64,000 bases of DNA from Diplolepis rosae. Taxonomy: Eukaryota > Arthropoda > Insecta > Hymenoptera > Diplolepididae. The notes under the pieces were generated by a model, which saw only the letters and a program-made list of their open reading frames with translations, had not been told where the DNA came from and searched no databases. A program made the position numbers and the translations under genes. This document shows positions 1-47,588 of the stretch, in pieces (the first letter of the stretch is position 1; each line of letters starts with the position of its first letter). The stretch covers positions 1,302,001 through 1,366,000 of the forward strand of contig JAPYXD010000738.1 of NCBI GenBank assembly GCA_030998225.1, written 5' to 3'.

Positions 1-13
1 AGGAATAGGAATT

Positions 14-499
14 TTGCAAACAAAATCAGGTTGCAATCTAGATTCATCAACTCCATATTACCATCTTCAAAACCATTTGAATATAATGGATAATTCAATT
101 CCAGTCAGCAAATCAACTACTTCCCTTGCTATAATTTCACCATTTTTATATAATATTTCCATTCAAGAGCCTCACTTACTAAAAAAGGTATTACTTCTTC
201 TTCAGCAAAAAGAAGACATGCCATTATCAATCTTCGAAAACCATGTCTTTATCCTTACAAAATATGCAAACATTCAAAAAATCATTCCATCAATTTTTAT
301 TTCTAGTGCACATAAATTAACATTAGCACTAATCTTTATCACTTTACTTATGATTACAATTTTAGGATTATTACTATTGAAAATTCAAAAAATATCTAAA
401 AAAATAAACAAAACGCCAACACGTATAGAACTTATACAAAAAACTCCTTTAAGCTCAGTGACAAAACCTTTACTGACCGACTTGACGTTTAACTTTTGA
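14..499 (+). CDS. Env-like glycoprotein, C-terminal fragment of an LTR retroelement
   Basis: The 161-codon open frame has a hydrophobic segment at about residues 102-124 (LTLALIFITLLMITILGLLL), followed by a basic stretch (KIQKISKKINK) and a short tail. That is the layout of a transmembrane anchor and cytoplasmic tail of a retroelement Env. The part before it is Ser/Thr- and Leu-rich ectodomain-like sequence. The 5' part of the gene lies outside the window, so the start is not a true start. A decayed homologue lies inverted at 7108-7524. Two Cys-rich ORFs, a dsRBD gene, a polypurine tract and an LTR follow on the same strand, so I place it in the 3' part of one element. The Env assignment rests on membrane topology and position, not on a diagnostic fusion peptide; a small unrelated membrane protein is possible. 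Confidence 0.55.
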   Translation: MQTKSGCNLDSSTPYYHLQNHLNIMDNSIPVSKSTTSLAIISPFLYNISIQEPHLLKKVLLLLQQKEDMPLSIFENHVFILTKYANIQKIIPSIFISSAHKLTLALIFITLLMITILGLLLLKIQKISKKINKTPTRIELIQKTPLSSVTKPLLTDLTFNF

Positions 500-836
500 C
501 GTTTCCTTTATTCCATCTTTCACCCTTTTCTTTAATAGACTTGAAGTCAATTCACAAAATTCTTCAGATACACGTACATTCCGTCTTTACCTTGCTCAAA
601 ACCACGTGCATGAACGTCCTATACGGTCAGAAGGACAGTTTTTGTACCCACGTCTTTAATGTTTCTTACTAAAGGAAAAACAAACTGTAATATAAAAGTT
701 GTTTTTCTGACGGAAAGTAAAATACCTTTAGCAAAATCTTTTACCTTGCATGATTAGAAAATATATTCAAAAAGTTATTTTTCAATCTCCTTATCAGACC
801 TTAATAAAATAAATCTATTCTAACAATTTGTAGAAA
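500..836 (+). other. intergenic spacer between Env-like and Cys-rich ORF A
   Basis: No open frame of interest is seen. The stretch ends in a pyrimidine-biased, branchpoint-like and AG-containing sequence just before the ORF A start, annotated separately. Confidence 0.5.
815..836 (+). promoter_or_regulatory. splice-acceptor-like site before ORF A
   Basis: A branchpoint-like CTAAC at about 819-823 is followed by ATTTGTAG, with the AG at 832-833, only 3 bases before the ORF A ATG at 837. The inverted copy keeps TTGTAG at the equivalent place. This would suit a spliced subgenomic mRNA; no donor can be assigned because the 5' part of the element is not in the window. Confidence 0.45.
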
Positions 837-1244
837 ATGATACCAACTCCAAGTCAACCTATTGTTAACCATCTTGGACCAGTAGACGGTGTATGTTCGC
901 AAGACTATCCGATAGCATACGCGCACTTATTACAGAGTTACTGCTTCGAATTAGAACCCTCAACATTGTTTTTATATTATAATCACCAAACCACAAAAAG
1001 ATATTGCCAATTCTGTTTCGAGAAATTAGATCAGGAAACTCAAAATAACTGTGAATATTTTACTTCATGGCATTCCATTTGTAAATTGAAATGCATATAT
1101 ATGAAATGTTACGGTTGTCAAGAACTATTAATTACTCCGCGAAAAAAAGCAGCTGATTGTAGAGAATGTATCGAACAATATTTAAATTATAAATTCGAAA
1201 TTAGCCAAGGAAACGAAGTTGAGGTAGAAAATACCCCTGCATGA
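837..1244 (+). CDS. Cys-rich accessory protein A (unknown family)
   Basis: This 135-aa protein begins at ATG 837 in the context AAAATG. Its centre holds paired cysteines (YCQFCFEKL, then CKLKC, then KCYGCQELL, then DCRECIEQYL), a pattern expected for a small zinc-binding fold. I do not recognise the family. The following ORF B has the same order of motifs (CX2C, then C-x-LK, then CxxC, then an R..AD.C block), so the two look like tandem duplicates. The protein has no signal peptide or membrane segment and an acidic C-terminus. A copy with several stops lies inverted at about 6440-6856. The splice-acceptor-like AG just upstream and the position between Env and LTR suggest an accessory gene of the retroelement. 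Function is unknown. Confidence 0.6.
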   Translation: MIPTPSQPIVNHLGPVDGVCSQDYPIAYAHLLQSYCFELEPSTLFLYYNHQTTKRYCQFCFEKLDQETQNNCEYFTSWHSICKLKCIYMKCYGCQELLITPRKKAADCRECIEQYLNYKFEISQGNEVEVENTPA

Positions 1245-1383
1245 TTATACGTATCTACCTTCCACGCATGTAATCACGCATGAAAAATTTTGTTAAATTT
1301 AATAAAATCCTTAATACTAAAAAATTGTAAATTTTGCAAATATTTCAAATTCCTTAAATATTGTAAATTTCCCCAACAGAAAA
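1245..1383 (+). promoter_or_regulatory. AT-rich spacer with splice-acceptor-like site before ORF B
   Basis: The spacer ends in TTTCCCCAACAG, with the AG at 1378-1379, 4 bases before the ORF B ATG at 1384. The inverted copy has different upstream bases (TTATTCGTAG) but keeps the YAG and the spacing to AAAAATG. Confidence 0.45.
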
Positions 1384-1836
1384 ATGCTGCCCCAAGAAAT
1401 CGAAACAATCGAAGCAGAAGAAGTTCGAGCAAGCGAGCAGGATGTTCAGCCGTATTTTGAAAATCAATTATGGTCAGAATACTGCTGCACAACCCTGATC
1501 GAGAATTTTTACATGAATGTTCTCGAAAAAAAACTTGTTTGCGAGGATTGTTGGATGACAGAACTCAGCTTTTTCGAAACCGAAGTAACATTACCCGTCC
1601 GAGTAGACCACATAGTTACTAAAGACTTATATTGTACATTAAAACTATCTAGCCTCGACTGCTCCATTTGCAATACACAAATTTTTTACATGCGGCAAAG
1701 AGCAGATTTATGTGTAACATATGCCGAACATGTAATTCATTTATACCAACAAGAAGCACTGTATAACGACGTCGATTCCCAAGCATCAACTATTATTTAT
1801 TATATTTTGATACTGAAGCTCAAACCAATTTTATAA
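1384..1836 (+). CDS. Cys-rich accessory protein B, paralogue of A
   Basis: This 150-aa protein has an acidic N-terminus (about residues 1-20, rich in Glu) followed by a Cys-rich domain: YCCTTL, VCEDCWM, YCTLKLSSLDCSICNTQIF, and an R..ADLC motif near residue 115. The order and spacing match ORF A, indicating a duplicated gene pair. It is probably a zinc-binding small protein; I know of no named family. The start is the ATG at 1384, directly after a splice-acceptor-like CAG. The 3' end lies next to the left border of an inserted repeat near 1850, so the last residues could be non-native. A decayed copy is inverted at 5985-6380. Role unknown; an accessory function in the host element is inferred from position. 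Confidence 0.58.
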   Translation: MLPQEIETIEAEEVRASEQDVQPYFENQLWSEYCCTTLIENFYMNVLEKKLVCEDCWMTELSFFETEVTLPVRVDHIVTKDLYCTLKLSSLDCSICNTQIFYMRQRADLCVTYAEHVIHLYQQEALYNDVDSQASTIIYYILILKLKPIL

Positions 1837-2189
1837 TAATATTACAGATGATGTGAATTACACATTTTCTCAAAGTCACTGAATTTCTTTTTGAATTTAA
1901 GTGAAACAGGAAATTCAATTTACTTAAGGCTCTATCGGCCTTAAGGAACACATTCTCATCATGACACTCGCGCTTCGCGCTCGATTTTCTGTATACATTT
2001 CAGTATAACTTTTTAATAAATTACATGATTAAAAGAATTTACTTTCTTCGACATATCTAAACAGGAAAAACAATCGTAGACTTTATTTAAGGAAACGATT
2101 TTGCAGAACAACGCTTATTTCGTATCTCACATATTTTGGTGAAAAAAATCGAATTTTTTTAATATTAAAAATCAAAACATGAAATATAC

Positions 2190-2862
2190 CTCCTGTCCCG
2201 AAATGTCTTAATGAGAATTTGTAGACCTCATTTAGGCAAACAATTTTCCATCTAAACAATTTTTTTGTATCTCACATATTTTGTCTAAAAATGGAATTTT
2301 TGAATTTTAATCGTATTTTTTAGAATTGAAACGAAAAATATATGTTTTTTCAGAAACTGTGTCAGACAAAATTTGTAGATCTTTTTGAAACGAACAACTT
2401 TGTATTCTTACGCTTTTTTCGTATTTCACATATTTTGTCTAAAAAATGGAATTTTTTCATTTTTATCGTATTTTTTGGAATTGAAACGAAAAATATATGT
2501 TTTTTCAGAAACTGCGCCAGACAAAATTTGTAGATCTTTTTGAAACGAACAACTTTGTATTCTTACGCTTTTTTCGTATTTCACATATTTTGTCTAAAAA
2601 ATGGAATTTTTTCATTTTTATCGTATTTTTTGGAATTGAAACGAAAAATATATGTTTTTTCAGAAACTGCGCCAGACAAAATTTGTAGATCTTTTTGAAA
2701 CGAACAACTTTGTATTCTTACGTTTTTTTGGTATTTCCAATATTATTGTTAAAAAATTGAATTTTGGATTTTCAATAGTATTTTTTTTAATTAAAAAGAA
2801 AAATATGCATCTTATGAAAAAATATTATAATTCAAATTTTTAGGCCTTTATCTATTCAATAA
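2190..2862 (+). repeat. 155-bp tandem repeat array
   Basis: Units starting at 2342, 2497 and 2652 are nearly identical over 155 bp (TTTTTTCAGAAACTG, CAGACAAAATTTGTAG and ACGAAAAATATATG recur). Diverged units flank on both sides. Two complete units differ by only one or two bases, so the amplification is recent compared with the age of the element. Confidence 0.85.
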
Positions 2863-3215
2863 TATTGTTTCATAACGTTTTTTCTTATCTCGTATAATTT
2901 AACTGGAAAATGGAATTTTGATATTGACTTTTTTCGAATTTGAATATGCTGTAATATTTCTAATTTTGATGTAATCAAAAAATATTATGGGGTTAATTTT
3001 TAGAGATTTATGAGCACTATCTAAAACCAGTATTAAAATTTTTGATTTTTTCAAAAAATTATTTTCAAAAACACAAAAGTGGTGCTCAATCCCTCAATTT
3101 TGATTGGATGTGGCTGGTTAACGAACTTGTCCTTAATTTTTCGGCTCCGATAAAGTGTACCAAAGCTTAATTCAATCTGATAATTCTATCAAAAGTTATG
3201 CCGCACACGACCTAC

Positions 3216-3244
3216 TACAGACAGACAGACAGACAGACAGACAC
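3216..3244 (+). repeat. (ACAG)n microsatellite
   Basis: About seven copies of ACAG, near the right end of repeat family Z. Confidence 0.9.
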
Positions 3245-3413
3245 TTTCGTAAAAACCATTTTTTCTGACTCAGGGGGTCTCAAAACATAAAGATTTGATG
3301 AAAATTTCGAAAGTCATTTTTCACATAAAACCAATACCTTCTCATCCATGATGAGAATGTAAAAAAAAACTAACTAACTTTAGAATTTCAATATATTCAA
3401 TCATCAACTCAAA

Positions 3414-3440
3414 CAGGTTATTCTTTTGCAGATCAAAACA
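3414..3440 (+). promoter_or_regulatory. splice-acceptor-like site before dsRBD gene
   Basis: A pyrimidine tract ends in TTCTTTTGCAG, with the AG at 3430-3431. ATG at 3441 follows in the good arthropod start context AAAACAATGG. Confidence 0.5.
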
Positions 3441-3891
3441 ATGGCCTTGCAGACAAGAGACCTATCGAAAGGCACTGCTGTACAAGTTTTAAACGAGATA
3501 AGCATTGAGTATGATTTCTCCGAACCTTCATATATTGTAAAATCGCTTGGAAAACACCAAGAACTGCCACCGTTCCAAGCAACTTGCGAAATCTTTAATA
3601 ATAAAATAACTTTCTCTTGTATTGGGGAACCAGCCCCTCAAAAAAATGTCTGCAAAGCAAAATGCAGCATCTAAACTCTTGGAAATGCTTTCCACAAGAT
3701 ATGTATTTTTAGAAGAAATGAAAGAAAAAAGCTTAATCCCAGAATCGAAAATTTGCAAAATAAGTGATGAAATCAGTAAAGAAACCTTGCAAAAATGGAC
3801 CAACTCTTGTGAAAGGTGTTTTCAAAGAGGGCATTTAGCTCATAACTGCCGCAACCCTTTACGTAATAGAAAATATAAAAATAATTCTTAA
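3441..3891 (+). pseudogene. dsRNA-binding domain plus CCHC zinc-knuckle protein, frame broken once
   Basis: From ATG 3441 the first frame runs to 3674 and encodes helix 1 and the strands of a double-stranded-RNA-binding domain: AVQVLNEIS, then EPSYIV, PPFQATCEIF and ITFSCIG. The C-terminal dsRBD motif, a KKMSAKQNAASKL-type loop and helix, is in the next frame (from about 3622). The domain is therefore split by a one-base shift somewhere in about 3615-3645, near a run of seven A. The second frame then has a charged linker and ends with a CCHC knuckle (CERCFQRGHLAHNC at about 3808-3849) and a basic tail. dsRBDs of this type occur in Staufen/TRBP/Loquacious-like proteins and in viral RNAi suppressors. 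The dsRBD-knuckle pairing and the location just upstream of a polypurine tract and LTR suggest an accessory gene of the retroelement. The shift may be decay or programmed frameshifting; I favour decay. Confidence 0.65.
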
Positions 3892-4213
3892 AAATCTACA
3901 TTATGAAATTACGTTTTATATTACAGTTTTATATATTATTATTTTATATTACATGATATTTATAATTTACGAATATGAAATAAAAATTATTGATGTATTT
4001 AGTAATATAAGAAAAAATCATATGTAACCTTATGTTAAGTTCATACTATTTCAAAAAAAAAAAAACTATGTAATTATTTATAACAAAAAAAATTGTAATA
4101 TGAATGTTGGTTACTACGTCAGAAATAGAAATTCAATGTATCTTCAAAAACATTAACGAATGTATTCTTCTTCCGAAGATTCGATCGCGGATGCTTCACC
4201 CCCGCGCTCGAAC
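3892..4213 (+). other. non-coding 3' region of the LTR element
   Basis: AT-rich, no gene seen. It runs from the dsRBD gene to the polypurine tract. Confidence 0.5.
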
Positions 4214-4225
4214 TAGGGGGGGAGG
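4214..4225 (+). promoter_or_regulatory. polypurine tract
   Basis: AGGGGGGGAGG directly abuts the LTR start TGTCACG. This is the expected plus-strand primer site for an element whose coding region lies to the left on the plus strand. Confidence 0.7.
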
Positions 4226-4988
4226 TGTCACGTCCCGCGACGCATTCGAATGTACTATAGGCAGAGGCTAGGTCTAGAGAGAAATCTGGGAAAATTACTA
4301 AAAGAGAGAGAAAACCACCTATTGAAAAGAGAGGTATAACTACGTCACACGCAGCGGGAGACTGCGCAACGCGTGACGTCACCAAAAAATATAATATAAA
4401 AAGGACACACTGCCAAGGAAAAACTAGTCTTGTGAGCAAAATTAAGTGCGGCAAATTTCTAAAAATCTTAAAAGGATTCACAGCGTGAGATACGTGTTTA
4501 GTTCAGTTTTCCGAAGAAACGTGTCGTAAATTCTCCGATTGTACTTTCAATCTTTGAAAGGATCTTAGAGTCAGTGTAGAGTGAGATAACTATTCTTGTC
4601 CTCCTCACACCAGTGGGATATTTGTTTCTGTCTTCCTCATACCAGTGGGATACCTATTGCTGTCTTCGTCGCACCAGTGGAAGAATCATTCTCTCTCCCT
4701 CACACCTGTGAGGATCATTCATAAAAAAGGGACTATTCACAACTCAACAAAGGTACCGAAAATTCTCTCTATTCTTCACCTATTCCCTGTGCCATTGTTT
4801 GAATCATTGTAAAGTTTTAACCTTGTTTATATCAGTGTTAATTTAAATAAATTCAATTTGTATTACTTTACTAATCATTGTGTACTTTTCATTGACTTAT
4901 CCTCATCCCTAAGCGAGGATCATTCGATCCTAACTTAAAACGAGAAATCTTCGATCAAAGTAAGTATTTACGTACTTGTGACGTAACA
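4226..4988 (+). repeat. 3' LTR of the Env/dsRBD retroelement
   Basis: It starts TGTCACGTCC and ends GTGACGTAACA, so it has TG...CA ends with the short inverted repeats expected of an LTR. A TATA-like TATAATATAAAAAGG lies at about 4390-4404 and an AATAAA signal near 4848. A 32-bp repeat (TCACACCAGTGGGATA type) is present three to four times at about 4598-4710. The same 5' end recurs at 46453 next to a Gypsy gag fragment, so the left boundary is supported by an independent copy. The right boundary is inferred from the terminal inverted repeat only. Confidence 0.7.
4598..4712 (+). repeat. 32-bp direct repeats inside LTR
   Basis: CACCAGTGGGATA-type units begin near 4598, 4630 and 4662, with a diverged fourth at about 4694. 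They could be enhancer-like repeats in the LTR; that role is inference. Confidence 0.6.
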
Positions 4989-5984
4989 TTTCCTTTCATT
5001 CTTAGTTAATATTTACAATGACTATTAAAATTTTTATTAATGTTCTCGTTTATAAGAATTTTAAAAAATAAAAAATGTTTACATATCATTATTCTATTTG
5101 TTAATATGGGGATAATATTGGATTTAAATAATTGTTAATAATCACAAATAACAATAAATATTTTTTTAAATTTAGAATAATTATAAATAAGAATTACTAA
5201 TGAACAGAATCAAAAATACATACAAGAGGGCTCCACTTGAGCGCCACCTTTGTGCGTGGCCATTCCGGTCCTGCCTTAACGAAGGAGGCGAGCAACAAAC
5301 CGGCCGAGAACCGTGATCGTCGATTAAAATTCAACTCAGATACGATTGAACATTTTTAATCGTATCTCAGGTACCCATGAATATTTTTGAACTTTTCTTG
5401 GCTTAAATTGAAGATAAGATTTTAGACTCTATGTTGTATAATTTTTAGATTGTGGAAAAATTTTCCCTGGGTCATGCTAAAAGTTAAAGTTGAGGTAGAG
5501 AATTTGAGAAAATCTTGAATTGTTTTTTTTAAATCCTCACGTGCTGTATTATCTTCAGAAAGTCAAAGAAATATTTGTTGAGCATCACTAGACGTGGAAT
5601 TTTATAAGCTTTCACGCTGTATTTTTAAAAATGCCCTATCTCTTTTTTTCACCGAGATATCGTGGTTCAAAATCAGCAGTGATTTTTAATAGCGATGACA
5701 AGCACCGTGCGCATAATTTCCGACGGTAGTGTATAAAATTTAATTTACTATCACATTTTGAGATATGAGTTATATGGTTCTGGGCATCGAATGAAAAAAA
5801 ATAAATAAAAAAAGGAGAGTTATTTAAATGAGTGATTTGACATTTTATTGTTATAATAAAGAAATATATTTTTGATAAATAAGACAAATTTGCAGAAATA
5901 TGGTTAAATATATATATTTTTATTTTATTTATTATATATATATTTTTTTCATTCGTTGTTATAAATAATCGTTGTAGCTTCAGA
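4989..5984. other. unassigned AT-rich stretch
   Basis: No gene recognised. It contains a GC-richer patch at about 5225-5310 and a 10-bp-arm palindrome (AGATACGATT...AATCGTATCT) near 5338-5367. The right part is low-complexity A/T next to the decayed Cys-rich copy. Confidence 0.5.
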
Positions 5985-6382
5985 ATCGACGTCATTATAC
6001 AATACTACTTCTTCGTATAGATCTAATAAACGTTCGGCACAAGTTACGCATAGATCTGCTCTTTGCCGCATGGAAAAAATTATTGTATTGCAAAGGGAGC
6101 AGTCGAGGTTAGAGCATTTTAAAGTATAGTATCAGTCTTTTGTGACGATGTGATCTATTTCAAAGAGTAATGTTACCTCGGACTCAAAGAAGGTAAGTTT
6201 CGTCATATAACATTCCCTGCAAACAAGTTTTTTTTCAATGACATTTATATAAAAATTTTCGATCAGGGTTGTGCAACAGTATTCTGACTATAAACGATGT
6301 TCAAAATACGGCTGGACATCTTGCTCGCTTGCTCGAACTTCTACTTCGATTGGTTCAAATTCTTGGGACAGCATTTTTCTAC
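5985..6382 (-). pseudogene. decayed copy of Cys-rich ORF B
   Basis: The minus strand matches 1384-1790. The start region (AAAAATGCTGTCCC) and the segment around the MRQRADLC-like motif (near 6020-6070) are clear. Frameshifts and stops prevent a full product. The YAG before the start is retained. Inverted relative to the first copy. Confidence 0.7.
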
Positions 6383-6439
6383 GAATAAATTTATAATTTA
6401 CAATTCTTAGTATTGAGAATTCTATCAAATTTTACAAAA

Positions 6440-6858
6440 CCATTCATGCTTTATTTATATACGTGCAAGATAGATGGTTATAAATCATGCAAGGATATTT
6501 TTTACTAATTTTTTGATTCCGTGGTTGATTTCTAGTTTGTTGTTTACATATTGCTCGAGGCATCTCTTTCAATTAGATGATCTCTGTTACGGACTAAGTA
6601 ATATTTCTTCGCAACCATGAGAGTTCATATATATATATACATTCTAATTTACAAATGAAATGCCATGAGGTAAAAACTTCACATTTATTTTGAATCTCTT
6701 GATCTAATTTTTCGAAACAGAATTGACAGTATCTTTTTTGTGTTTAATGATTATAATATATAAATAATTCCGACAGTTCCAAATCAAAGAAATAACTATT
6801 TAATAAATAAACGTAAGTTATCGGATATTCTTGCGGACATACACCGTCTACTGGTTGG
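6440..6858 (-). pseudogene. decayed copy of Cys-rich ORF A
   Basis: The minus strand matches 837-1240, including the VDGVC, YCQFCFEKLDQE and HGCEE-like parts. The initiator ATG is changed to ATT and there are in-frame stops. It lies between the decayed ORF B and Env copies in the same order as in the first block. Confidence 0.7.
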
Positions 6859-7107
6859 TATAATTTTTCTACAATTATTTTAGTAAAGAATTCATTTTAT
6901 TAAGGTTTGACAAAAAGTTTAAATCATTTTTCCTTCATACATTGTCTAGTCATGCAAGGTGAAATTGGGTTCGAAGATTTTACTAAAAGTGTATTATATC
7001 TTTCCGTCAGAAAAACAACTTTTATAGGACCATATGTAACTTTTTTGGTATACAACATTAAAGGTATGTATGAGTACAAAAATTGTCCTTGTGATGGTAT
7101 AGAATGT
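6859..7107 (-). other. spacer in inverted Env/accessory block
   Basis: Corresponds to 500-836 of the first block, with conserved stretches such as TTCCGTCAGAAAAACAAC at 7002 on the plus strand. No gene. Confidence 0.5.
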
Positions 7108-7540
7108 TCAACTACGTTTTTGTTTATTTTTTTTTGATATTTTTTGAATTTTTAATAATATTAATCCTAAAATTTTAATCATAAGTAAAGTTATAATAAT
7201 TAGTGCTAATGTTAACTTAAATGCACTAGAAATTAAAACAGATGGAATACTTTTTTTAATTTTTGTATATTTTATAAGGATAAAGACATGGTTTTCGAAG
7301 ATTGATAATGGCAAGTCTTCTTTTTGCTAAAGAAGAAGTAATACCTTTGTTAGCAAGTGAGGCTCTTGGATAGAAATATTATATAGAAATGGTGAAATTA
7401 TAGCAAGAGATGTGGTTGATTTTCTAACTGAAATTGAATTATCCATTATCTTCAAAGGGTTTTGGAGATAGCAATATGGAGTAATATGTTTTATTTTATA
7501 AACATGACTATATATTTGTATCACAATTGCAAAGCTTATT
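7108..7540 (-). pseudogene. decayed inverted copy of the Env-like C-terminus
   Basis: Two adjacent frames on the minus strand (7327-7524 and 7108-7314) repeat the NIMDNSI, STTSLAIISPFLYNISIQEPHLL, MPLSIFENHVFIL and LTLALIIITLLMIKILGL segments of the first copy. A frameshift lies near 7315-7327. The membrane segment survives. This shows that the Env block exists in at least two copies and that its sequence is shared, not a chance open frame. Confidence 0.7.
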
Positions 7541-12240: not shown

Positions 12241-12640
12241 AAAATCACTGTTCATACTTATAATCATACTTATCATTTCGCATATTTAATTGATCGCGAC
12301 ATTCAATTATATCTTTTCTCGTTATAATTTTTTCTGTTTGAGAGTTTATAGGAGGGGGTTCTGGGGGTGGACGATCATCATCATTATAATGATTATCGTC
12401 GTTTTAAGAATTTATTTGAAATCTTTGGTTTAGTTTCCAATATTTCTCTAAAATAACGCTCTTCAAATTTTTCTTCCAAGTTTCCTTCTTGGTTTTCTTC
12501 AAACTTCTCTTCAAAATTTTCCACAAGATTATCTTCAAAATTCTGTTTAAATTTTTCTTCGAAATTTTCTTCAAAATTATCTTCAAAATTCCCTTCCAAA
12601 TTTTCTTCATAATTTTCTCCATCACTTCCTTCATGTGAGG
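12240..12640 (-). pseudogene. Gypsy copy A, pol linker with Glu/Asn-rich low-complexity stretch
   Basis: On the minus strand a run of NFEE/KFEE-type four-residue repeats (12393-12599) precedes, after a frame change, a Pro-rich and charged segment (DDRPPPEPPP, then TEKIITRKDII; about 12252-12397). The second part resembles the pol linker of insect Gypsy elements. It lies on the same strand and downstream of the RT and RNase H of copy A, so I treat it as that element's far pol region. Assignment of this exact part is tentative. Confidence 0.45.
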
Positions 12641-13017
12641 TTTTAATGTCGTCACACGGAGCTAAATCAGGCGAATGTAGTGGTTGTGGAACGATATGTG
12701 TTCAGTTTTTGGCGAAATGGTAGCGAAGAACGAGTGCAGTGTGAGAGGGCGCATTATTGTAAAGAAAAAATCACAAGTTGTCTGCCCAAAAACTTCTATT
12801 CTCAACTAATTCAGACACTGTAAAAATTGAAAAAATCATTTTTAGTCGTTTAGAAAATACAAGCGTAACTATGTAACAAATGATGACATTAACATGAAAT
12901 TTGTCACAGACGTCTGTAACAGTAGGACCAACATAAAAATAGAAGAGTTTGCCTGAATCGATTAGCCCACAAAGTTTAAATAAAAAATTCACCTTAGTTT
13001 TTTCCCACAATAATACT
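12640..13017 (-). mobile_element. mariner relic
   Basis: The segment matches the mariner at 54170-54955 in two blocks (GCGAATGTAGTGGTTGTGGAACG; and the N-terminal start region around 12810-13000). The right end carries the same terminal inverted repeat (TTCACCTTAGTTTTTTCCCA). The left end and most of the transposase are deleted. It lies within Gypsy copy A. Confidence 0.75.
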
Positions 13018-13531
13018 CGTATATATATGGTAATTCTTCTTTATATATTTCTATAATTGATCTACCTCTTTTTCTTTTCGGTTAAAAGGAAATATTTTTC
13101 AAATTTATAAGTAGATTTTTCCTTGGCGTACCTCGTGGTTTTTTCACAAAAAGGTTTAGAAGAAAAATTTTCGTCTAATTTTTCTTGGTTTTTATTTTGA
13201 TTCAAATTTTTCACTTTTTCTTGTTGTATTCTCTTTCGAGCTCTTGTAGTAATAGTTTTCCATGATAAATTTTCTTACTTTTTTGAAAAATACTGGACTT
13301 AATAAGAATACTGTCATAAAAATAAGTTTTGAAGCCAGTCAATTGAACAAATTTGTGTATTTTAAAATATGTTTACCAATCTCAATAAACAATTCTTCAT
13401 TAAGAAATTCTTGTGAAAATTCTGGAATTTTTGATTGAATATTTAATATTTGGGCTTCCGAAATTTCTTTAAAACGATTTACATCGTCTGGTGCAATTCT
13501 TGGATTCAAGTTTCTTCGTTTTAAAGGTTTG
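13018..13531 (-). pseudogene. Gypsy copy A pol, segment after RNase H
   Basis: An open frame at 13339-13531 (minus) reads KPLKRRNLNPRIAPDDVN and on to LKYTNLFN. It is in the same reading frame as the RNase H tail across the solo LTR at 13532-14151, once one 4-bp duplicate is removed. Further downstream are Lys/Arg-rich stretches (KPRGTPRKN, KKKRGRS) with stops. No HHCC zinc-binding or DDE integrase motif is seen, so integrase is missing or beyond recognition. Confidence 0.55.
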
Positions 13532-14151
13532 GTCACGTCCTGTGACCATTAATATCCATTTATAATATTATAATTGTTATTCGGATTTGAAAAGAAGGAA
13601 CGTCGGGGAAACCAGAGAAGAAATCTATTAGAACATATTTTTCCCCTTTTTCTTCTTCAATATGCGAAAAAAGCCAAGCACTATCGATTGAAACATGGCG
13701 ACCAGGATCACAATAGATCGAAAATTGCCCATAAAAGCCAGTGCGAATCCGCAAATCTTCAGTTGCCGTCAGTTCCTGTCAGACCATCTTAAACATCGGA
13801 ACTCTCCCTCGAACAGTTGCTGTCAGGAAATCTTAGGATATGGAACTCACCCTCGAAACCCAGTGTTCAACAGTTCTCATCGCGGAGTCGGTCTCCCCAA
13901 AACAGGTCTTCAAGTGTTCGTGAATTCTTGTCAGTTTTCTTCAACATTGTGCAGCACTCAAGTTCCTTCGAGGAGAATCTACAGTACTCTGGTAGATTTC
14001 TCCAAACAATCGTCAGGATTTTCCTTCGCCGTATCAAGTGGTCCAGTTGTTCACCTGAGACAAATTTTATACACATTCCCCAAGTTCGTGGAAATACCGG
14101 AGTGTTCCAATTGTTAATAATATTGAAGGGTGAGTAACTAGGACGTTACAG
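13532..14151 (+). repeat. solo LTR inserted in Gypsy copy A pol
   Basis: It starts (T)GGTCACGTCC and ends GGACGTTACA, and is flanked by GTTT on both sides (4-bp target-site duplication). The flanking minus-strand reading frame continues across it. The 5' end resembles the sequence at 56243 (TGTCACGCCCTGTGACCAT). The plus-strand open frames within it have no recognisable product. Confidence 0.75.
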
Positions 14152-14466
14152 TTTTACCTCACATTCACAGTTTTTTTGTTTATTTCTTGTAAAATTCTTC
14201 TTGGCAAACATTTTATCTTGAGAAGTCATAAAAGCATCGTTGTCATCAACTTGTAACTATCTTGATTTCCCTTTGTTATCGTCAATAGGGTTTCTTGAGA
14301 GAGCGTCTGCATTTACATTCATTTCCCCTGCTTTGTAAATTACATCAAAATCATATTCTGCGAGTTTCAATCGCCAACGTGAAACTTGTGAACAAGTGTC
14401 TTTAGAATTTTGAAACCAAACTAAAGGTTTGTGATCACTCACTAAAGTAAATTTTCTTCCATACAA
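14152..14466 (-). pseudogene. Gypsy copy A RNase H
   Basis: The minus-strand frame contains FTLVSDHKPLVWFQNSKD, SQVSRWRLKLAEYDFDVIY and NVNADALSRNP. These are the hallmark C-terminal motifs of Gypsy RNase H, including the catalytic-type VSDHKPL and DALSR boxes. One TAG follows LSRNPIDDNKGKSR, and the frame then continues to the solo LTR. The N-terminal half of RNase H (14470-14560) is frameshifted. Confidence 0.9.
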
Positions 14467-15760
14467 ATAAGGACGAAAATGAGTTACACAAAATAAATCA
14501 GGTCGTTGTGAAAGTGGTTCTTCACTTAATTTTGTTTTAAAATATCGAAAGCTGCTTGTTGTTTTTCTGTCTAATTAAAAGGTATATCTTTTTTTAGAAG
14601 TTGATTCAAAGGACTTGTAATTTTTGAAAATCCATCTACAAATCTTCTGTAATATCCTGCTTAGCCTCAAAAATTGTTTAACATTTTTCTGTTTTTGGGA
14701 CTGGAGAGTTTTTTACAGCTATTAACTTTTTTGGATCTGGCCATATTCCATTTTTATTAATTATATGACCCAAACATATTACTTTGGGACGTAAAAATTT
14801 GCATTTGTCTAGTTCTAAATGAAGATTTGCTTTTCTAAGTCTTTCTGCTAAATTGTTAAATTTGATTTAGTGCTGTTCTAAAGTATTTGCATATATAACT
14901 ATTTTATCGAGATATACAAAAAGTTCCGTTCCGATTAATCCAGTTAATGTTAAGTCCATTGATCTTAAAAATGTGGCTGGTGCTGTTTTCAAACCGAAAG
15001 GCATTCTATCGAAATTGTAATGGCCATGAGGTGTAGAAAATGCGATTTTATGAGAGTCTTTGGGGTCCGTTTTTATATGGTGAAAACCGGTAGCTACCCA
15101 GGAAAAAAAACCGATAGAACGCGCGTCTCTTTGAATTGTGTATCTGTCATTTGCATATTGAGGAAATAAAAATTCAATCGGATGGTGACACTTGGAATCT
15201 GCCATTTGTGCGCAATGTTTTAAATCTGCCATTCGACATTGGTTAAATCGTTAAGTGAATAGGGTTGAATAAGACTGATTAACCTCAAATAATTTCTAAT
15301 GGCAATGTACGATTCATTGATGTTCGCATGAATCGGTTGAAATTCCAAATGAAATGGAAGTCTTAAAAGGTCACTCTGAATAAGAGAAATACAATAAAAA
15401 CAGGATACGAATTGTATTGTAAACGATTGTTCACTTTAAATACATTATTTTCTATCGGAAATATTGGTTTTCAATCTTTTAATGCTAAAATTCCAGTGAC
15501 AAATACGCAATTCAGAACACCTCAAAGCCCATTAAAATTTAACGCAAGTGAATGGTTTTTTGTTTCCTGGGTAAATCAAACACTGAAAAATATTTTTCTG
15601 GTCCTAGAGAATCGAGTATATCGTTCATATTAGATAGAGGATACCAGTGGCAAATTGTTTTCTCATTTAATTTACGAAAATCAAGAATCATTCACCATTT
15701 CATTTTTCCTTAAAAAGCAGATTTTTTAGCAACTATACATACTGGAGTGTTATAGGGTAA
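14467..15760 (-). pseudogene. Gypsy copy A reverse transcriptase
   Basis: On the minus strand the RT begins near 15760. The N-terminal part near 15620-15740 is frameshifted; compare copy B (ILDFRKLNEKT). It continues through the palm at 14867-15232 (GFHHIKTDPKDSHKIAFSTP, YNFDRMPFGLKTAPATFLRS). The catalytic box reads YLDK instead of YLDD, so the third carboxylate is lost. Several frameshifts, and a 15241-15610 stretch replaced by unrelated sequence, show it is dead. Copy B at 49675-50187 is the clearer homologue. Confidence 0.85.
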
Positions 15761-16107
15761 TTGTGAGGGTTCGATTATTTAATTTTTGAATAATTCATCG
15801 ACTTTTCTTGTAATTTCTTCCTTTTGAACAGGGGGAAATATATATTGTCTTGAAAAAATCGGAGAGTCATCCACAGTAGGAATTGAATGTTGTAATACAT
15901 TAGTAGCTTCAAGTGGTTCTCCTGGGACATGAAACCTGTCTGCATTATTTAAATTGAATTTTCTACATGTTCATATTCATCTTGATTCAAATGGTCTAAT
16001 CGAAGAAGCTTTTTAATACATTCTACTCTGTCTTCGTCTGTTATATCATAAAATTTGCATGAGTTAATTAGAGAATTCTCAGTTCTTAAAAAGTTATTTA
16101 ATATTTT
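15761..16107 (-). pseudogene. Gypsy copy A, protease-RT linker
   Basis: The minus-strand open frame (15949-16107 and on) reads KILNNFFRTENSLINSCKF and ITDEDRVECIKKLLRLDHLN, matching copy B at 49270-49430. It leads into the RT N-terminus (FPPVQKEEITRKVDELF-type segment near 15800-15850). Confidence 0.75.
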
Positions 16108-16304
16108 CCCGGTAAGAAGGTGGGCATTGAATGGCATTGAAATATCAAAATCTGGAAAGAAGCGGAATCGACAATGAAACTTTTGAATGCATTTCAAGTC
16201 CTAGGCATTAAAAGGCATTTAAAAGTTTTATCCTCGATTACATTTGTTTCCACATCTTGACATTTCAATGCCATTCGATGCCCACCTTCTTAGCGGGTTA
16301 CTTG
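16108..16304. mobile_element. palindromic MITE (about 190 bp), copy in Gypsy A
   Basis: The sequence folds on itself: CCCGGTAAGAAGGTGGGCAT at the left is the inverse of ATGCCCACCTTCTTAGCGGG at the right, with about 85-bp imperfect arms around a short centre. The same element sits at the same place in Gypsy copy B (49079-49268), so it inserted before the copies separated. Confidence 0.8.
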
Positions 16305-17292
16305 ATAAATCTTCATTATTTATTTGTTGAAAATTGTGTAAATTTTCAATTTCTTTGTAACATTCTTGTTCTTCAATTTGCAAAATTTGCAAGTTTTAAA
16401 TAAGATTTTACTTTGTAATTTTTTACAACTGCGTCTCCTACGTAAACGCCATATTGGATATGTAATCGAGTGACATAACCTTCACCTTTTCCTGTATTTT
16501 TTATTTAAACATAAAATGTTGTAACTGTTCGAGATGGAATAGTAAATGTATTGTTAGATTTGAAAGGGTAACAGTGGTTCTCAATTTTTAAGCATTTTAA
16601 AATATAGTTTATATTTACACTATAATCTTGAAAAAATTCTGATCCTAATACTCCATTTTCTTCTATTGGGACTTCATTGGGAATAATGTTAAATATCGTT
16701 GGATAATCGAAAATGTTCATTTTTACCTGTCCTAATGTGTAAAAATAACCACTGTTACCCTTTTAAATTGATTGATTTGAAAGGGTAACAGTGGTTCTCA
16801 ATTTTTAAGCATTTTAAAGTATAGTTTATATTTACACTATAATCTTGAAAAAATTCTGATCCTAATACTCCATCTTCTTCTATTGGGACTTCATTGGGAA
16901 TAATGTTAAATATCATTGGATAATCGAAAATGTTTATTTTTACCTGTCCTAATGTGTAAAAATAACCACTGTTACCCTTTTAAATTGGCAGATTTAAAAG
17001 GGCAACAGTGGTTCTCAATTTTTAAGCATTTTGAAGTATAATTTATATTTACCTTATTACCTTGAAAAAATTCTGATCCCAATACTCTATCTTCTTCTAC
17101 TCATACTTCATTTGTAATAATGTTGAATATCGTTGGATAACCGAAAATGTTTATTTTTACTTGTCCTAATGTGTAAAGTGATAAATCATTAATTCCTATA
17201 GGTTTTAATACGTTTTGGCTATTTATTGGTATTTCAGGGTTGAGAACCTCCTGTTTAGTTAAATTTCGAGCAGCACCAGTATCAATGGTCAT
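16305..17292 (-). pseudogene. Gypsy copy A protease region, with internal triplication
   Basis: The minus strand encodes the retropepsin-like start TIDTGAARNLT near 17240-17292 (DTGA catalytic motif), then FGYPTIFNIITNEV and GVLGSEFFQDYSVNINYILK with LKIENHCYPF (16505-16720). The middle-to-end part of the domain is repeated three times. Homologous parts occur in copy B (48620-48912) and in the fragment at 62740-63150. The repeats and stops make it non-functional. Confidence 0.8.
16557..17207. repeat. 217-bp tandem triplication within the protease gene
   Basis: Units start at 16557, 16774 and 16991 (GATTTGAAAGGGTAACAGTGG and variants), with a constant 217-bp period. At each of the first two junctions the 18-base arms AACCACTGTTACCCTTTT and its inverse meet around a short loop, forming a hairpin. 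Copy B has a single unit. Confidence 0.85.
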
Positions 17293-17693
17293 GTGTGTTG
17301 GACTTTTTAGAGCTTCTGTTCATATTATAATTGATGGGATTGCAGTAGATTTGGAAATATGTATTGTCGTTGTATGATTGCTAGAAAAGGTAGCCAGTGG
17401 TTCTCCATTCACGCTTATCTCAGTGCACCGGTGCTTGGGAGAGCTTTGAGTTTTCCTGATGACGTGTTTGTGATTGGTTATTTGGTCGTATCTTGCAGTC
17501 TCGTACTAAATGACCAGGTTTTTTACAGTAATTGCGAATTATTCCCGTATAACTAGAAATTTTGTTGAGGGTTTTTATCATTTTGTAAATATCTATTTTC
17601 ATATGGTTGATTTCGAGATTGAAATTGCCTTGAGTTGAGGTCTTTATACGGTTCTGGATTCAATTGTCTATTATTATTATTAACATTGTTATT
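17293..17693 (-). pseudogene. Gypsy copy A gag C-terminus with zinc knuckle
   Basis: The minus-strand frame at 17420-17602 contains YCKKPGHLVRDCK (CCHC), followed by QSQTRHQENSK. Upstream the sequence is Asn-rich (AAT/ATT runs). The matching region in copy B is 48515-48617 (CKKPGHLVQDCK). The R1-type LINE interrupts it at 17709. Confidence 0.8.
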
Positions 17694-31021: not shown

Positions 31022-31320
31022 GTATATCTGTGATATTTAATTTGGCATGGGGTCAGTTTAGTTACAAATTTTTTATGTCGAAAAGAACATAAACATTTGA
31101 AAGGCAAACGTTTCGGCCACAAATGGGGGCCCTCTTCAGTGCCAACACTTTTAATTTGCATTGAAAATAACAATTATAAACTAAACAAGCAAACCTCATG
31201 CAACTTAATATTTATTTTCTTTTTTTGGTTTTTTTTTTCTTATAATAAATATATTAATAAAAGTAGAATTAAAACATGCGATTAGACCCTCCAGCATCGT
31301 CCTCACACAAAGTCCTCTCG
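31022..31320 (+). repeat. outer end of left arm of the Penelope-like element
   Basis: Inverse of 45040-45337 at high identity. It contains the hammerhead-like motif and an AT-rich block that reads TTTTTGGTTTTTTTTTTC. Confidence 0.85.
31098..31150 (-). ncRNA. hammerhead-ribozyme-like motif, left arm
   Basis: The minus strand has CTGAAGA, a stem II (GGGCCCCC...GGCC), then GAAAC. This is the conserved core of hammerhead motifs known from Penelope-like terminal repeats. The following bases are GTTTGCC: a short stem III is possible but the expected U before the cleavage site is C, so activity is doubtful. Confidence 0.45.
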
Positions 31321-31329
31321 TGTCACGTA

Positions 31330-34300
31330 TTATATATGCGTAAAAAACTTAGTTGACAATAATTTTACGAAAGTATTGCATTTATACTAAAGCGATCCCA
31401 TAATGCGATTGTTAATCCTGAAAACGCGAAAACGCGAAGAAAGAGAATTTTTTAGTCATTTTAAATTGACATGTATGATATGCGCGTGAAAAACTTTGTT
31501 ACCAATACTTTTTCAAAAGTATTGTATTCAAAGTAAAGGATTCCCATAATGTAATTACTTCACCTAGAAACGCGAGAACGCGAAAACGCGAAAACACGAA
31601 AAAGCGAAGAATAAGAGATTTCTTAAGTTATTTTGAATTAACAGGTAGGATATATGTGTATAAAAACTTGTTTATAATACCTTTCAAAAAGTACTGCATT
31701 TATGGTAAAAAAACGCTCCTGCAATGTCATTATTAATCCCAAATACGTGAAAACACGAAGAAAGAGAATTTTAGAGTCATTTTAAATTGACATGTATGAT
31801 ATGCGCGTGAAAAACTTATTTGCCAATACTTTTTCGGAAGTATTGCACTTATAGTAAAGCGATCCCATAATGCGATTACTAATCCTGAAAACGCGAAAAC
31901 ACGAAGAAAGAGAATTTTAGAGTAATTTTAAATTGACATGTATGATATTCGCGTGAAAAACTTTGTTGCCAATACATTTTCGAGAGTATTGTATTCATAA
32001 TAAAGGATTCCAATAATATAATTACTTCGCATAAAAACGCAAAAACGAGAAAAGATATACGCGTAAAAAACTTAGTTGACAAAACTTTTTCAAAAGTATT
32101 GTATTTATAGTAAAAATCACTCCCGTAATGTAATTCTCAATCATAATTACGCAATAAAGCGAAGAATAAGATTCTCTGGATATTTTAAATTGACCTATAA
32201 GATATATGCGTAAAAATCTTTGTTAGAAATACTTGTTCAAAAGTATTTTATTTGTAGTGAACATCACTCCCGTAAAGTAATTACCAATTATAATTACGCG
32301 ATAACGCGAAGAATAAGATTCTCTGGCTATTTTAAATAGACCTGTAAGATATATGCGTAAAACACTTAGTTGACAATAATTTTTCGGAAGTATTGTATTT
32401 ATAGTAAAGCGATCCCATAATGCGATTACTAATCCTGAAAACGCGAAAACCCGAAAAATAAAAATTTTTAAGACATTTTAAGATATTTTAAATTTACATG
32501 TAATATATATGCGTAAAAAAACTTAGTTAACAATAATTTTTCGGAAGTATTGCATTTATAGTAAAGGGATCCCATAATGCGATTACTAATCCTGAAAACG
32601 CGAAAACACGAAGAAAGAGAATTTTAGAGTCATTTTAAATTGACATGTATGATATGCGCGTGAAAAACTTTGTTGCCAATACTTTTTCGAAAGTATTTTA
32701 TTTATAGTAGAGCAATTCCATAATGCAACTACTGATGCTGAAAACGAGAAAACACGAAGAGAGAGGATTTTGAAGTCATTTTAAATTGACATGTATGATA
32801 TGCCCGTGAAAAACTTTGTTGACAATACTTTTTCAAAAGTATTGTATTTATTGTAAAAATCACCCCCGTGATGTAATTAACAATCATAAATACGTGATAA
32901 CGCTAAGAATGAGATTCTCTGGATATTTTAAATAAACCTGTAAGATATATGCGTAAAAATCTTTGTTGGAAATACTTTTTCAAAAGTATTTTATTTATAG
33001 TGAACATCACTCCCGTAAAGTAATTAACAATCATAAATACGTGATAACGCTAAGAATGAGATTCTCTGGATATTTTAAATAAACCTGTAAGATATATGCG
33101 TAAAAATCTTTGTTGGAAATACTTTTTCAAAAGTATTTTATTTATAGTAGAGCAATTCCATAATGCAATTACTGATCCTGGAAACGCGAAAACCCGAAGA
33201 ATAAGAATTTTTAAGAATTTTTAAGATGATTTAAATTGACATGTAATATATATGCGTAAAAAAATGTAGTTGACAATAATTTTTCGGAAGTATTGCATTT
33301 ATAGTAAAGCGATCCCATAATGCGATTACTAATCCCGAAAACGCGAAAACACGAAGAAAGAGAATTTTAGAGTCATTTTAAATTGTCATGTATGATATGC
33401 GCGTGAAAAACTTTGTTGCCAATACTTTTTCGAGAGTATTGTATTCATAGTAAAGGATTCCCATAATATAATTACTTCACCTAAAAACGAAAAAACGCGA
33501 AAAGACATACGCGTAAAAAACTTAGTTGACAATAATTTTTCAAAAGTATTGCATTTATAGTAAAGCGACCCCATAATGCGATTACTAATCTTGAAAACAC
33601 GAGAACACGAAAAATAAAAATTTTTAAGAATTTTTAAGATATTTTAAATTTACATGTAATATATTTGCGTAAAAAACTTAGTTGACAATAATTTTTCAAA
33701 AGTATTGCATTTATAGTAAAGCGACCCCATAATGCGATTACTAATCTTGAAAACACGAGAACACGAAGAAAGAGAATTTTTGAGTCATTTTAAATTGACC
33801 TGTATGATATGCTCCTGAAAAACTTTGTTGCCAATACTTTTTCGAGAGTATTGTATTCATAGTAAAGGATTCCCATAATGTAATTACTTCACCTAAAAAC
33901 GCAAAAACGCGAAAATATATTTCCGTAAAAATCTTTGTTGGAAATACTTTTTCAAAAGTATTTTATTTATAGTAGAGCAATTCCATAATGCAATTACTAA
34001 TCCTAAAAACACGAAAACCCGAAAAATAAAAATTTAAAAAATTTTTTAAGACATTTTAGATTGACATGTAAGATATATGCGTAAAAAACTTAGTAGACAA
34101 TAATTTTTCAGAAGTTTTGCATTTATAGTAAAGCGATCCCATAATGCGATTACTAATCCTGAAAACACGAAAACTCAAAGAATAAGAATTTTTATGAATT
34201 TTTAAGATATTTTAAATTGACATGCAAGATATATGCGTAAAACACTTAGTTGACAATAATTTTTCGAAAGTATTGCATTTATAGTAAATCGACCCCATAA

Positions 34301-34790
34301 TGCGATTACTAATCTTGAAAACACGAGAACACGAAGAAAGAGAATTTTTGAGACATTTTAAATAGACATGTATGATATGCTCGTGAAAAACTTTGTTGAC
34401 AATACTTTTTCGAGAGTATTGTATTCATAGTAAAGGATTCTCATAATGTAATTACTTCACCTGAAACGCGAAAACACGAAAACGCAAAGCCACGAAAATG
34501 CTAAGAATAGGAAATTTCTTTAGTTATTTTGAATTGACAGGTATGATATATGTGTATAAACCCTTGTTTACAGTACTTTTTCAAAAGTATTGCATATATA
34601 GTAAAAAAAAAACGTTCCTATAATGTAATTATTAATACTAAATAAGCGAAAAAACGCGAAGAAAAAGATTTTTTAGTTATTTCAAATTCACCTGTATGAT
34701 GTACGCGTAAAATACTTTTTAACAATACTTTTTCAAAAGTATTGTATTCATAGTAAAAATCAATCCCGTAATGCAATTATACAAGATGTT
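31330..34790 (+). repeat. left-arm tandem array, about 150-160-bp units
   Basis: More than twenty diverged units are seen. Each has, in order, CCATAATGCGATTACTAATC, GAAAACGCGAAAAC, ATTTTAAATTGACATGTA, GATATGCGCGTGAAAAACTT and an 8-bp-arm hairpin AATACTTTTTCGAAAGTATT. Units fall into subtypes (for example CACTCCCGTAATG units with GATAACGCG) that alternate. Confidence 0.85.
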
Positions 34791-41985: not shown

Positions 41986-42059
41986 GTGGCTAGGAAAAAC
42001 AACAACTATTCTACCCTCAAGATGCCTGATCTGATTCTCAAGATACCTTACCTTACCTT

Positions 42060-44720: not shown

Positions 44721-45039
44721 AAAATTCTCAATATTTCCTAAATCAGTTTTCTCTCTATCTTGCAGCGGAGTGGCAGTCTACCATACTGACTGTCGACTCC
44801 GTGATCGTAAAGAGAAAAAAATTTAAATTTTTCTTCCCAAATTCAAATTTATCGGTTTTCGACTCACCCTTAACTTCTCGGGTTCGCGTGTGTGTGTGTG
44901 TGTTGTGCTGTGCGTTCTTCATCGAGGGCCCACGTTTGAATTTTTGACCTGTGTTTTTTATGGAATTAATTGTGGTTGTGTGCCTTTGGAGTAGCGCGTT
45001 CAGCAATTCACATCTTCCACGAATCGGACACGAGAGGAC
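44721..45039 (-). other. arm-specific stretch of the right side
   Basis: Unique compared with the left arm. Contains a (GT)n run at about 44888-44904 and a small palindrome (AGTCGACTC-like). It could be leader or promoter of the Penelope-like unit on the minus strand; inference only. Confidence 0.4.
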
Positions 45040-46452: not shown

Positions 46453-46545
46453 GTCACGTCCCGCTACGTATTTGAATATAGTATGGGCACAGGCTGGGCT
46501 TGGGGAAAAATCTAGGGAAGTTACTAAAGAGAGAGAAAACCAACT
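46453..46545 (+). repeat. LTR fragment (5' end) related to the LTR at 4226
   Basis: TGTCACGTCCCGCTACG followed by TTTGAATATAGTATGGGCA, and the AGAGAGAGAAAACCA block, match 4226-4320. It breaks off near 46545, and Gypsy gag sequence follows on the same strand, so this is probably the deleted 5' LTR of Gypsy copy B. Confidence 0.75.
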
Positions 46546-46559
46546 ATAGATACATAAAT

Positions 46560-47345: not shown

Positions 47346-47588
47346 ATATACTATTATATCCTACTAAGCAACAAAGATATAATCATTTGAATGGTCAATG
47401 AAGAAGTAATAATAGTTTTGCAAGAAACTTTCAAAATGAAATTTTTTTATGCAATACAAATTATAATTTCAACATTAACAAAAATCATTTTTTGCAAAAT
47501 AGAAATAAAAATTACAGAAATAGCAAGTATAATTTTCAATAACAAAGGTACAACAATAACAATAATTTTCCTAGAAATTTGTAAAATT
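47346..47588 (+). pseudogene. Gypsy copy B gag, middle part
   Basis: MVNEEVIIVLQETFKMKF and the ITEIASIIFNNKGTTITIIF region correspond to copy A at 19587-19681 plus 20227-20375, without the second X insertion. Ends at the poly(T) of the inverted R1-type insertion. Confidence 0.6.

Follow-up and report, generated by a model that had tools for sequence, protein, structure and literature searches.

We have described here an unusual endogenous retroelement of Diplolepis rosae, the 3' end of which opens a 64,000-nucleotide stretch of contig JAPYXD010000738.1 (the window). Positions 1-4988 of the window, on the plus strand, come from a damaged copy of a Ty3/Gypsy-type element that is present in many copies, and form its 3' end; the pieces of several copies together give the composite gene order gag - pol - X98 - Env1 - dsRBD-A - dsRBD-B - Env2 - ORF1 - ORF2 - ORF3 - polypurine tract - long terminal repeat (LTR), where ORF denotes an open reading frame and dsRBD a double-stranded RNA-binding domain. 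Eight genes lie between pol and the 3' LTR, two of them envelopes and six accessory genes, and we regard the architecture of a 17.6-kb Ty3/Gypsy-type element with two envelopes as practically certain. The best overall explanation is that this is an endogenous, once-infectious metavirus whose envelope and accessory proteins would be made from spliced mRNAs, and we put its probability at roughly 0.7.

The architecture is seen most directly in three LTR-bounded copies (C358, C362, and C393; 17,648, 17,612, and 17,635 bp), each sampled as a 5' end, three middle pieces, and a 3' end. They are flanked by 4-bp target-site duplications (CAGT, GTAA, and CTAC respectively), which bear out the LTR ends TGTCACG...GTAACA proposed in an earlier note on the window. 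The two 763-bp LTRs of each copy are 98.9, 99.5, and 99.1% identical, and because the pairs are so nearly identical we place the insertions in the recent past. The gag start, X98 with the start of Env1, dsRBD-A, dsRBD-B, ORF1, ORF2, and ORF3 follow one another in order between the LTRs of all three, with some genes broken in some of these copies; pol, the remainder of Env1, and Env2 are placed from other copies (L003, L006, L009, L010, and L015-L018). In ten further copies dsRBD-A is always present and dsRBD-B always at least in part, and X98 with the Env1 start is present in nine of them. Directly 3' of the 5' LTR is TACTTCCTTTTTTC and then TGGTGCATCGGCC, which we take to fit the 3' end of tRNA-Gly and to be the primer-binding site. 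A leader of ~900 nt precedes gag, and the LTR has a TATA at position 170 and an AATAAA at position 620.

The earlier note had described a retrovirus-like, envelope-bearing LTR element in which three accessory genes separate Env from the 3' LTR, and had proposed a search for full-length copies, in which relatives without these ORFs would mark them as unrelated flanking DNA. In the same genome, the three LTR-bounded copies sampled above all carry ORF1-3 between their LTRs, and the description stands in this respect. The three accessory genes are real, but the set was under-called, and an element with only three such genes is ruled out by the five more genes found upstream of ORF1-3 in related copies.

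The family is abundant. Within the 757.7 Mb of genome searched, there are 1131 candidates for ORF1 and 818 for ORF2, and for each gene all 150 of the candidates scored are matches, those of ORF1 at 87-100% identity; by our own count 133 of these ORF1 matches have no internal stop. Among the 20 most diverged ORF1 copies, drawn from the best 150 of the 1131 candidates, ORF1 is present in all 20, while 19 have a match to ORF2 downstream of it and 16 have one to ORF3, and a missing match may reflect an insertion because these pieces stop ~2 kb downstream. Three pieces (L012, L013, and L021) gave no match to the element queries used on them. Relatives in the protein database number 74 for ORF3, 33 for ORF1, and 34 for ORF2, all of them 'ena' records, and patterns for ORF1, ORF3, and Env1 gave 279, 25, and 11 pattern matches in a collection of viral contigs, none of them a relative.

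The polymerase region has the order reverse transcriptase (RT) - RNase H - integrase, as in Metaviridae, although this too is a composite, in which the last part of L015 matches the first part of L010. The domains are matched by Pfam (RVT_1, 119-124 bits, and RT_RNaseH, 132 bits, in L015/L018; Integrase_H2C2, 75 bits, and rve, 49.7 bits, in L010), and the Gag zinc knuckle (zf-CCHC) scores 20.9 bits with a cut-off of 20.8. Compared with solved structures, the RT is closest to the Ty3 RT/RNase H at 252 bits, with others at 191, 132, and 122 bits and that of human immunodeficiency virus at ~50; from their molecule names we take the three intermediate matches to be a caulimovirus-type polyprotein, a murine-type, and a foamy-type enzyme respectively. 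An RT nearest to that of Ty3 among solved structures, LTRs with TG...CA ends, and target-site duplications within the 4-6 bp range in 3/3 copies are all features of Metaviridae; the RT is Ty3-like rather than retroviral, and no BEL/Pao chain is among the matches listed, of which the Ty3 enzyme is the best. The element is most likely a Metaviridae-like (Ty3/Gypsy-type) endogenous retrovirus. We also note that the region 5' of the integrase zinc domain (L010:3-1589) is long, rich in lysine, and weakly matched by the AT-hook family (13.6 bits, cut-off 17.4).

The two envelopes belong to different families. Env1 matches Monjiviricetes_fusion (PF24664) with 606.3 bits over the C-terminal 505 residues in L009 (cut-off 27), and its N-terminal part in L010 matches the same family with 255 bits. 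Env2, scored on piece L003, matches Baculo_F at residues 67-350 (62.2 bits, cut-off 24.1), and it thus has the baculovirus F-type envelope characteristic of errantiviruses; the errantivirus plan of gag-pol-env only with a single envelope is not seen here, where eight genes separate pol from the 3' LTR. In one copy (L011) a 722-residue frame runs from Env2 straight into ORF1, residue 141 of the former being followed by residue 4 of the latter, and we considered a fusion of ORF1 to Env, but read this arrangement as a deletion.

ORF1, ORF2, and ORF3 behave as genes under purifying selection, as indicated by low ratios of nonsynonymous to synonymous divergence (dN/dS), calculated by the Nei-Gojobori method from stop-free copies covered to at least 90%; the values for individual pairs are not independent, because the copies share ancestry. 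The mean is 0.27 for ORF1 (25 open copies), 0.18 for ORF2 (15 open copies), and 0.25 for ORF3 (13 open copies), and the most diverged pairs give 0.09-0.14 at a synonymous divergence (dS) of ~0.35 for ORF1 (four pairs), 0.11-0.14 at a dS of ~0.3 for ORF2, and 0.20-0.22 at a dS of ~0.65 for ORF3. Selection on several accessory genes, a trait of complex retroviruses, is thus found for these three. The values are 0.31 for dsRBD-A and 0.24 for dsRBD-B (8 copies each, at low divergence), and 0.25 for the N-terminal part of Env2 (3 copies). A separate observation is that in six copies (L027, L031, L034, L035, L037, and L042) ORF1 and ORF2 are 87-96% like the reference and ORF3 only 71-76%, so that the 3' ends look mosaic, as if subfamilies had recombined.

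None of the accessory proteins matched any retroviral family in the Pfam scans. ORF3 (scored on the same gene in L004) contains a dsrm domain at 30.5 bits (cut-off 23) and a zf-CCHC_3 match at 23.8 bits, which is below its cut-off of 27, and dsRBD-A has a dsrm match of 37.8 bits in two stretches (cut-off 23). In the ORF3 alignment the KK.AK stretch (K68, K69, A71, and K72) is invariant or nearly so; this part of a dsRBD contacts the RNA backbone. At the matching place dsRBD-B is without these lysines, and for this reason it may be a protein-binding variant. X98 (L010:2619-2897) has a CARD-like look, although the Pfam CARD match of 14.8 bits (E 0.03) is below the cut-off of 23.9, and its profile found no CARD chain among the PDB sequences, only two chains of repeat or designed proteins (best E 0.0086); if it were a true CARD, X98 would be a viral CARD-only protein. 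ORF1 and ORF2 match no Pfam family above cut-off. Among the sequences of solved structures, the ORF1 profile had no match at E up to 10 and the profiles of ORF3 and dsRBD-A none at E up to 0.01, and that of ORF2 had two weak matches (best E 0.15). AlphaFold models of ORF1 and ORF2 are unusable (mean pLDDT, the predicted local distance difference score, 37.6 and 42.5), and a comparison of ORF1 with ORF2 as paralogues is suggestive only (hhalign probability 2.8, P 0.016).

These features suggest how the element may have worked. A Ty3-type retroelement would have become enveloped through the capture of two fusion proteins and would be transcribed from its LTR, the full-length RNA being both the genome and the source of Gag and Pol. 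A donor in U5 would join the capped R-U5 leader to acceptors before X98, dsRBD-A, Env2, ORF1, ORF2, and ORF3, yielding at least six shorter messages, with Env1 read from the X98 message and dsRBD-B from the dsRBD-A message. Entry would be by the Monjiviricetes-type or the F-type fusion protein, ORF1 and ORF2 would be zinc-binding regulators, and ORF3 and dsRBD-A would bind double-stranded or structured RNA, so as to blunt host RNA interference (RNAi), to carry unspliced genomic RNA, or both.

For the dsRBD proteins we see an even chance that they are RNAi suppressors or genomic-RNA factors. A rival that concerns function only, to which we give slightly less than even odds, would have dsRBD-A, dsRBD-B, and ORF3 package genomic RNA or export it from the nucleus, in a Rev-like or CERV-like manner, instead of suppressing RNAi. 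The coupling of a dsRBD to a zinc knuckle in ORF3 would suit such a role, the many splice sites would make export of unspliced RNA a problem for the element, and the CERV protein of Cer1 in Caenorhabditis elegans is required to export unspliced RNA (PMC10309623; this and the other sources cited here by PMC number are represented by parts of their text).

Spliced expression of the downstream genes is likely, judging from the signals at their starts. We scored acceptors as a YAG of at least 0.8 within 16 nt upstream, with gene starts that we chose from the ORFs, and found an acceptor-like AG near 6 of the 9 gene starts, whereas of the remaining ATGs in these pieces only 25 of 250 have one (binomial tail 6.4e-5, and 1.0e-4 to 4.3e-4 under five other settings). 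The distances to the start are 5 nt for X98, 1 for dsRBD-A, 16 for Env2, 3 for ORF1, 4 for ORF2, and 10 for ORF3 (in L006), and the site at Env2 is strong (score 5.36, 3rd of 1031 AGs). The gag, Env1, and dsRBD-B starts have no acceptor-like YAG within 16 nt. Two gene pairs overlap, X98/Env1 and dsRBD-A/dsRBD-B, and because the second gene of each pair, Env1 and dsRBD-B, is also the one without an acceptor, and no other post-pol gene lacks one, two-gene messages are suggested. By eye, the acceptor AG is retained in 26/28 copies for ORF1 (lost in L005 and L007), 29/29 for ORF2, and 25/26 for ORF3, although these copies are mostly close relatives, the most diverged being the decayed minus-strand copy in the window that is counted in the 29/29. 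As to the donor, AAA/GTAAGT in U5 scores highest within the LTR, leader, and gag start of 3/3 copies (3.9, the next best being 3.5, 3.5, and 3.8), and it is present in 8/8 LTR ends checked. The earlier note had placed an acceptor-like sequence just before each accessory ATG; the placement exceeds background for the genes as a set, but for ORF1 the strongest nearby AG is a different one, 39 nt upstream.

Several points weigh against the reading of a once-infectious metavirus with spliced messages. The donor and acceptor weights are rough ones modelled on the textbook consensus, and with them the AGs next to ORF1, ORF2, and ORF3 rank 53rd, 24th, and 89th, and that of X98 135th, of 1031 AGs (approximate ranks, because the ranked pieces overlap in part). 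The stronger AG 39 nt upstream of ORF1 is 2nd of 1031, and another lies 25 nt upstream of ORF3. Six donor-like 9-mers outscore the U5 site, three in pol, two in Env1, and one before ORF3. When the whole genome was searched for U5 exons with a base other than G behind them, 29 sites were found (4 with a control pattern) and 0 splice junctions: 20 are donor-changed LTRs, which the search itself selects for, 8 are unrelated DNA, and 1 is an older diverged LTR. Spliced RNA would be without the primer-binding site, so that spliced genomic copies are expected to be rare, and for this reason we read the search as neither for nor against splicing. Among the proteins, dsRBD-B scores 21.9 bits with dsrm, below the cut-off of 23, and X98 has a dN/dS of 0.67 (9 copies), which gives no signal of selection and is uninformative because there is almost no divergence. 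Finally, the functions of all the accessory proteins are inferred ones.

Two further observations concern the junctions themselves. An identical U5 stretch of 28 nt stops exactly at the donor in L094 (minus orientation, junction at 1514), the rest of which is diverged; we considered this locus as a spliced copy but read it as an older diverged LTR that shares the stretch. A donor-like CAG/GTAATT lies 15 nt before the ORF3 acceptor AG (window 3414-3431) in 21/26 copies by eye, and the window copy has GTTATT there.

If the downstream ORFs were instead expressed from internal promoters or through re-initiation, with no splicing, the AGs would be chance occurrences in T-rich spacers. The want of junctions and of any spliced retro-copy in the genome search, together with the modest ranks of the proximal AGs of ORF1-3, would fit this, and the MDG1 group of Drosophila makes accessory short ORFs (sORFs) from unspliced transcripts (PMC11952523). 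We nonetheless think it unlikely, since acceptor-like AGs are several times as frequent at the gene starts as at other ATGs, the AGs are retained in nearly all copies, close to one another as most of these are, and env is spliced in Drosophila relatives (PMC12992720).

Maintenance of the ORFs by the host, as at a domesticated locus, is far less probable still: purifying selection by itself is silent on who benefits, but here its signal extends across dispersed copies, and the three LTR pairs at 98.9-99.5% identity are as expected from recent transposition. That the ORFs are unrelated flanking DNA or fossil host genes beside an LTR is already refuted, in spite of the broken, nested, and interrupted state of the window copy, by the same order of ORF1-3 between two LTRs in 3/3 copies, the 150/150 scored matches each for ORF1 and ORF2, and the low dN/dS.

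The window copy itself is laid out as follows.

2-499, plus strand: C-terminal part of Env2 (Baculo_F type) with the membrane anchor, seen as an ORF; the 5' part is absent from this copy.
832-833, plus strand: acceptor-like AG 3 nt 5' of the ORF1 ATG, retained in 26/28 copies.
837-1244, plus strand: ORF1, a Cys-rich accessory protein of 135 residues, supported by 150/150 scored genome matches and by dN/dS.
1378-1379, plus strand: acceptor-like AG 4 nt 5' of the ORF2 ATG, retained in 29/29 copies.
1384-1836, plus strand: ORF2, a Cys-rich accessory protein, native to ~1800, with the last 11 residues from the insert.
~1801-3360 (approximate bounds), plus strand: inserted foreign repeat, with direct repeats spaced at 155 nt.
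3430-3431, plus strand: acceptor-like AG 9 nt 5' of the ORF3 ATG, retained in 25/26 copies.
3441-3891, plus strand: ORF3, a dsRBD plus CCHC zinc-knuckle protein, in two frames in this copy.
4215-4225, plus strand: polypurine tract touching the 3' LTR, seen in the sequence; the same tract is present in L023-L025.
4226-4988, plus strand: 3' LTR of 763 bp with TG...CA ends (TGTCACG...GTAACA), 97.8% identical to the 5' LTR of L019; target-site duplications are seen in three related copies.
4957-4965, plus strand: donor-like AAA/GTAAGT in U5, the proposed common splice donor when in a 5' LTR.
5952-7482, minus strand: second, decayed copy with an Env2 tail, broken ORF1, and ORF2, from sequence matches to the element queries.

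The sequence and its ORFs agree with the earlier note as to the plus-strand places of the Env tail, ORF1-3, the polypurine tract, and the LTR, and as to the AGs at 832, 1378, and 3430, which lie 3, 4, and 9 nt before their ATGs. Its single dsRBD/zinc-knuckle ORF needs amendment: both domains are present, but in the window copy they are in different frames, whereas ORF3 is uninterrupted over at least 137 residues with no stop in 13 of the 32 loci with an ORF3 match. The damage extends to ORF2, whose terminal 11 residues are absent from its relatives. ORF2 and ORF3 are separated by ~365 nt in L006, versus an intervening repeat of ~1.5 kb in the window copy, and part of this insert (a 633-nt match, 90%) recurs at 51793-52419 on the minus strand. 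Just outside the window on its left (piece L014), an opposite-strand copy of the same family adjoins the shortened Env2, with gag/pol at 86-96% amino acid identity. Beside the decayed minus-strand copy at 5952-7482 there is no ORF3 or LTR match.

Elsewhere in the window there are further gag/pol fragments of related elements, at 12260-17551 (minus strand), 46685-50268 with 52953-53048 (plus strand), and 62568-63305 (plus strand), with 47-91% amino acid identity to the family Gag-Pol, and 100 bp of LTR-like sequence at 46452-46550. Two large repeat arrays with ~146-nt spacing lie in opposite orientation at 31297-34758 and 42049-44849. ARAGORN found no tRNA genes in the window.

Among the closest known systems are the errantiviruses and insect endogenous retroviruses such as gypsy, ZAM, and idefix, which likewise have a Ty3-like pol and a Baculo_F-type Env, and known members of which splice env (PMC12992720). 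In Drosophila env-bearing Gypsy elements the splice to env starts, according to subclade, at an exon 5' of gag, at an AU dinucleotide, or inside gag (PMC12992720). The present element differs from errantiviruses in its length of 17.6 kb, its second, unrelated Env, its six accessory genes, and the position of its candidate donor, which lies in U5 and neither 5' of gag nor inside it.

Viral-type glycoproteins on LTR elements have precedents. Mosquito gypsy elements, like BEL elements and some RNA viruses, are described in figure legends as having type III fusion glycoproteins (PMC13172572, which also cites Chary and Hayashi 2025 on the age of gypsy envelopes), and in itself, therefore, a Gypsy-type element with a Monjiviricetes-like Env is nothing new; the part of that text covered here names no second Env or accessory genes in these elements, and the word 'accessory' occurs 0 times in it. 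An earlier survey of Jingchuvirales glycoproteins in arthropods reports adjacent Gypsy fragments, in Hymenoptera among other groups, and, in the text covered, 'no clear evidence' of Gypsy capture (PMC10084718). Anakin, a mosquito element, is also an LTR element with a captured chuvirus/Monjiviricetes-type glycoprotein (PMC7642597; also PMC12440569), but its pol is BEL/Pao and that of the present element Ty3/Gypsy-like.

Extra genes have precedents also. The MDG1 group (412 and mdg1) consists of insect Ty3/Gypsy elements with the conserved accessory ORFs sORF1 and sORF2, although these are upstream of gag and unspliced, and the elements have no Env (PMC11952523). Cer1, from an invertebrate, is an LTR element in which an additional gene other than Env acts on the element's RNA, but it has one such protein and not a battery, and no dsRBD genes are named in the part of the report covered (PMC10309623). 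Bdelloid rotifer LTR elements carry extra captured ORFs as well, with the terms dsRNA, double-stranded RNA, and zinc occurring 0 times in the text of PMC5408684 that was covered.

Within the open-access literature, to which subscription papers, other preprints, and Repbase are external, no two-envelope or dsRBD-gene element appeared in the titles and abstract starts among the matches listed, and an earlier description of the element is possible. The combination of the two Envs and the accessory set is what we have not met in the published work searched, and it gives this env-bearing Metaviridae-like element an unusual gene content.

The complex vertebrate retroviruses (lentiviruses, spumaviruses, and human T-lymphotropic viruses) have several small genes around or after env and a common 5' donor, which in spumaviruses and human T-lymphotropic viruses is in R. 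The present element differs from these in its Ty3-like RT, its two Envs, and the lack of Pfam matches between its accessory proteins and any retroviral family, but its arrangement is as elaborate as theirs. More tentatively, at a probability that we judge to be about one in three, it could represent a complex retrovirus-like lineage with its origin outside Retroviridae: a metavirus of invertebrates that spreads with two envelopes from different sources (Monjiviricetes-type and baculovirus F-type) and has alternative splicing of six accessory genes, a duplicated RNAi-suppressing dsRBD set, and a CARD-like anti-death protein, convergent with lentiviral accessory genes. With at least 150 matching copies and LTR pairs ~99% identical, the splicing and RNAi-suppression hypotheses can be tested with host RNA data. 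If the overall reading is correct, a single element can retain two unrelated fusion proteins, and the complex-retrovirus plan of several accessory genes behind a common leader arose independently in an invertebrate Ty3/Gypsy element.

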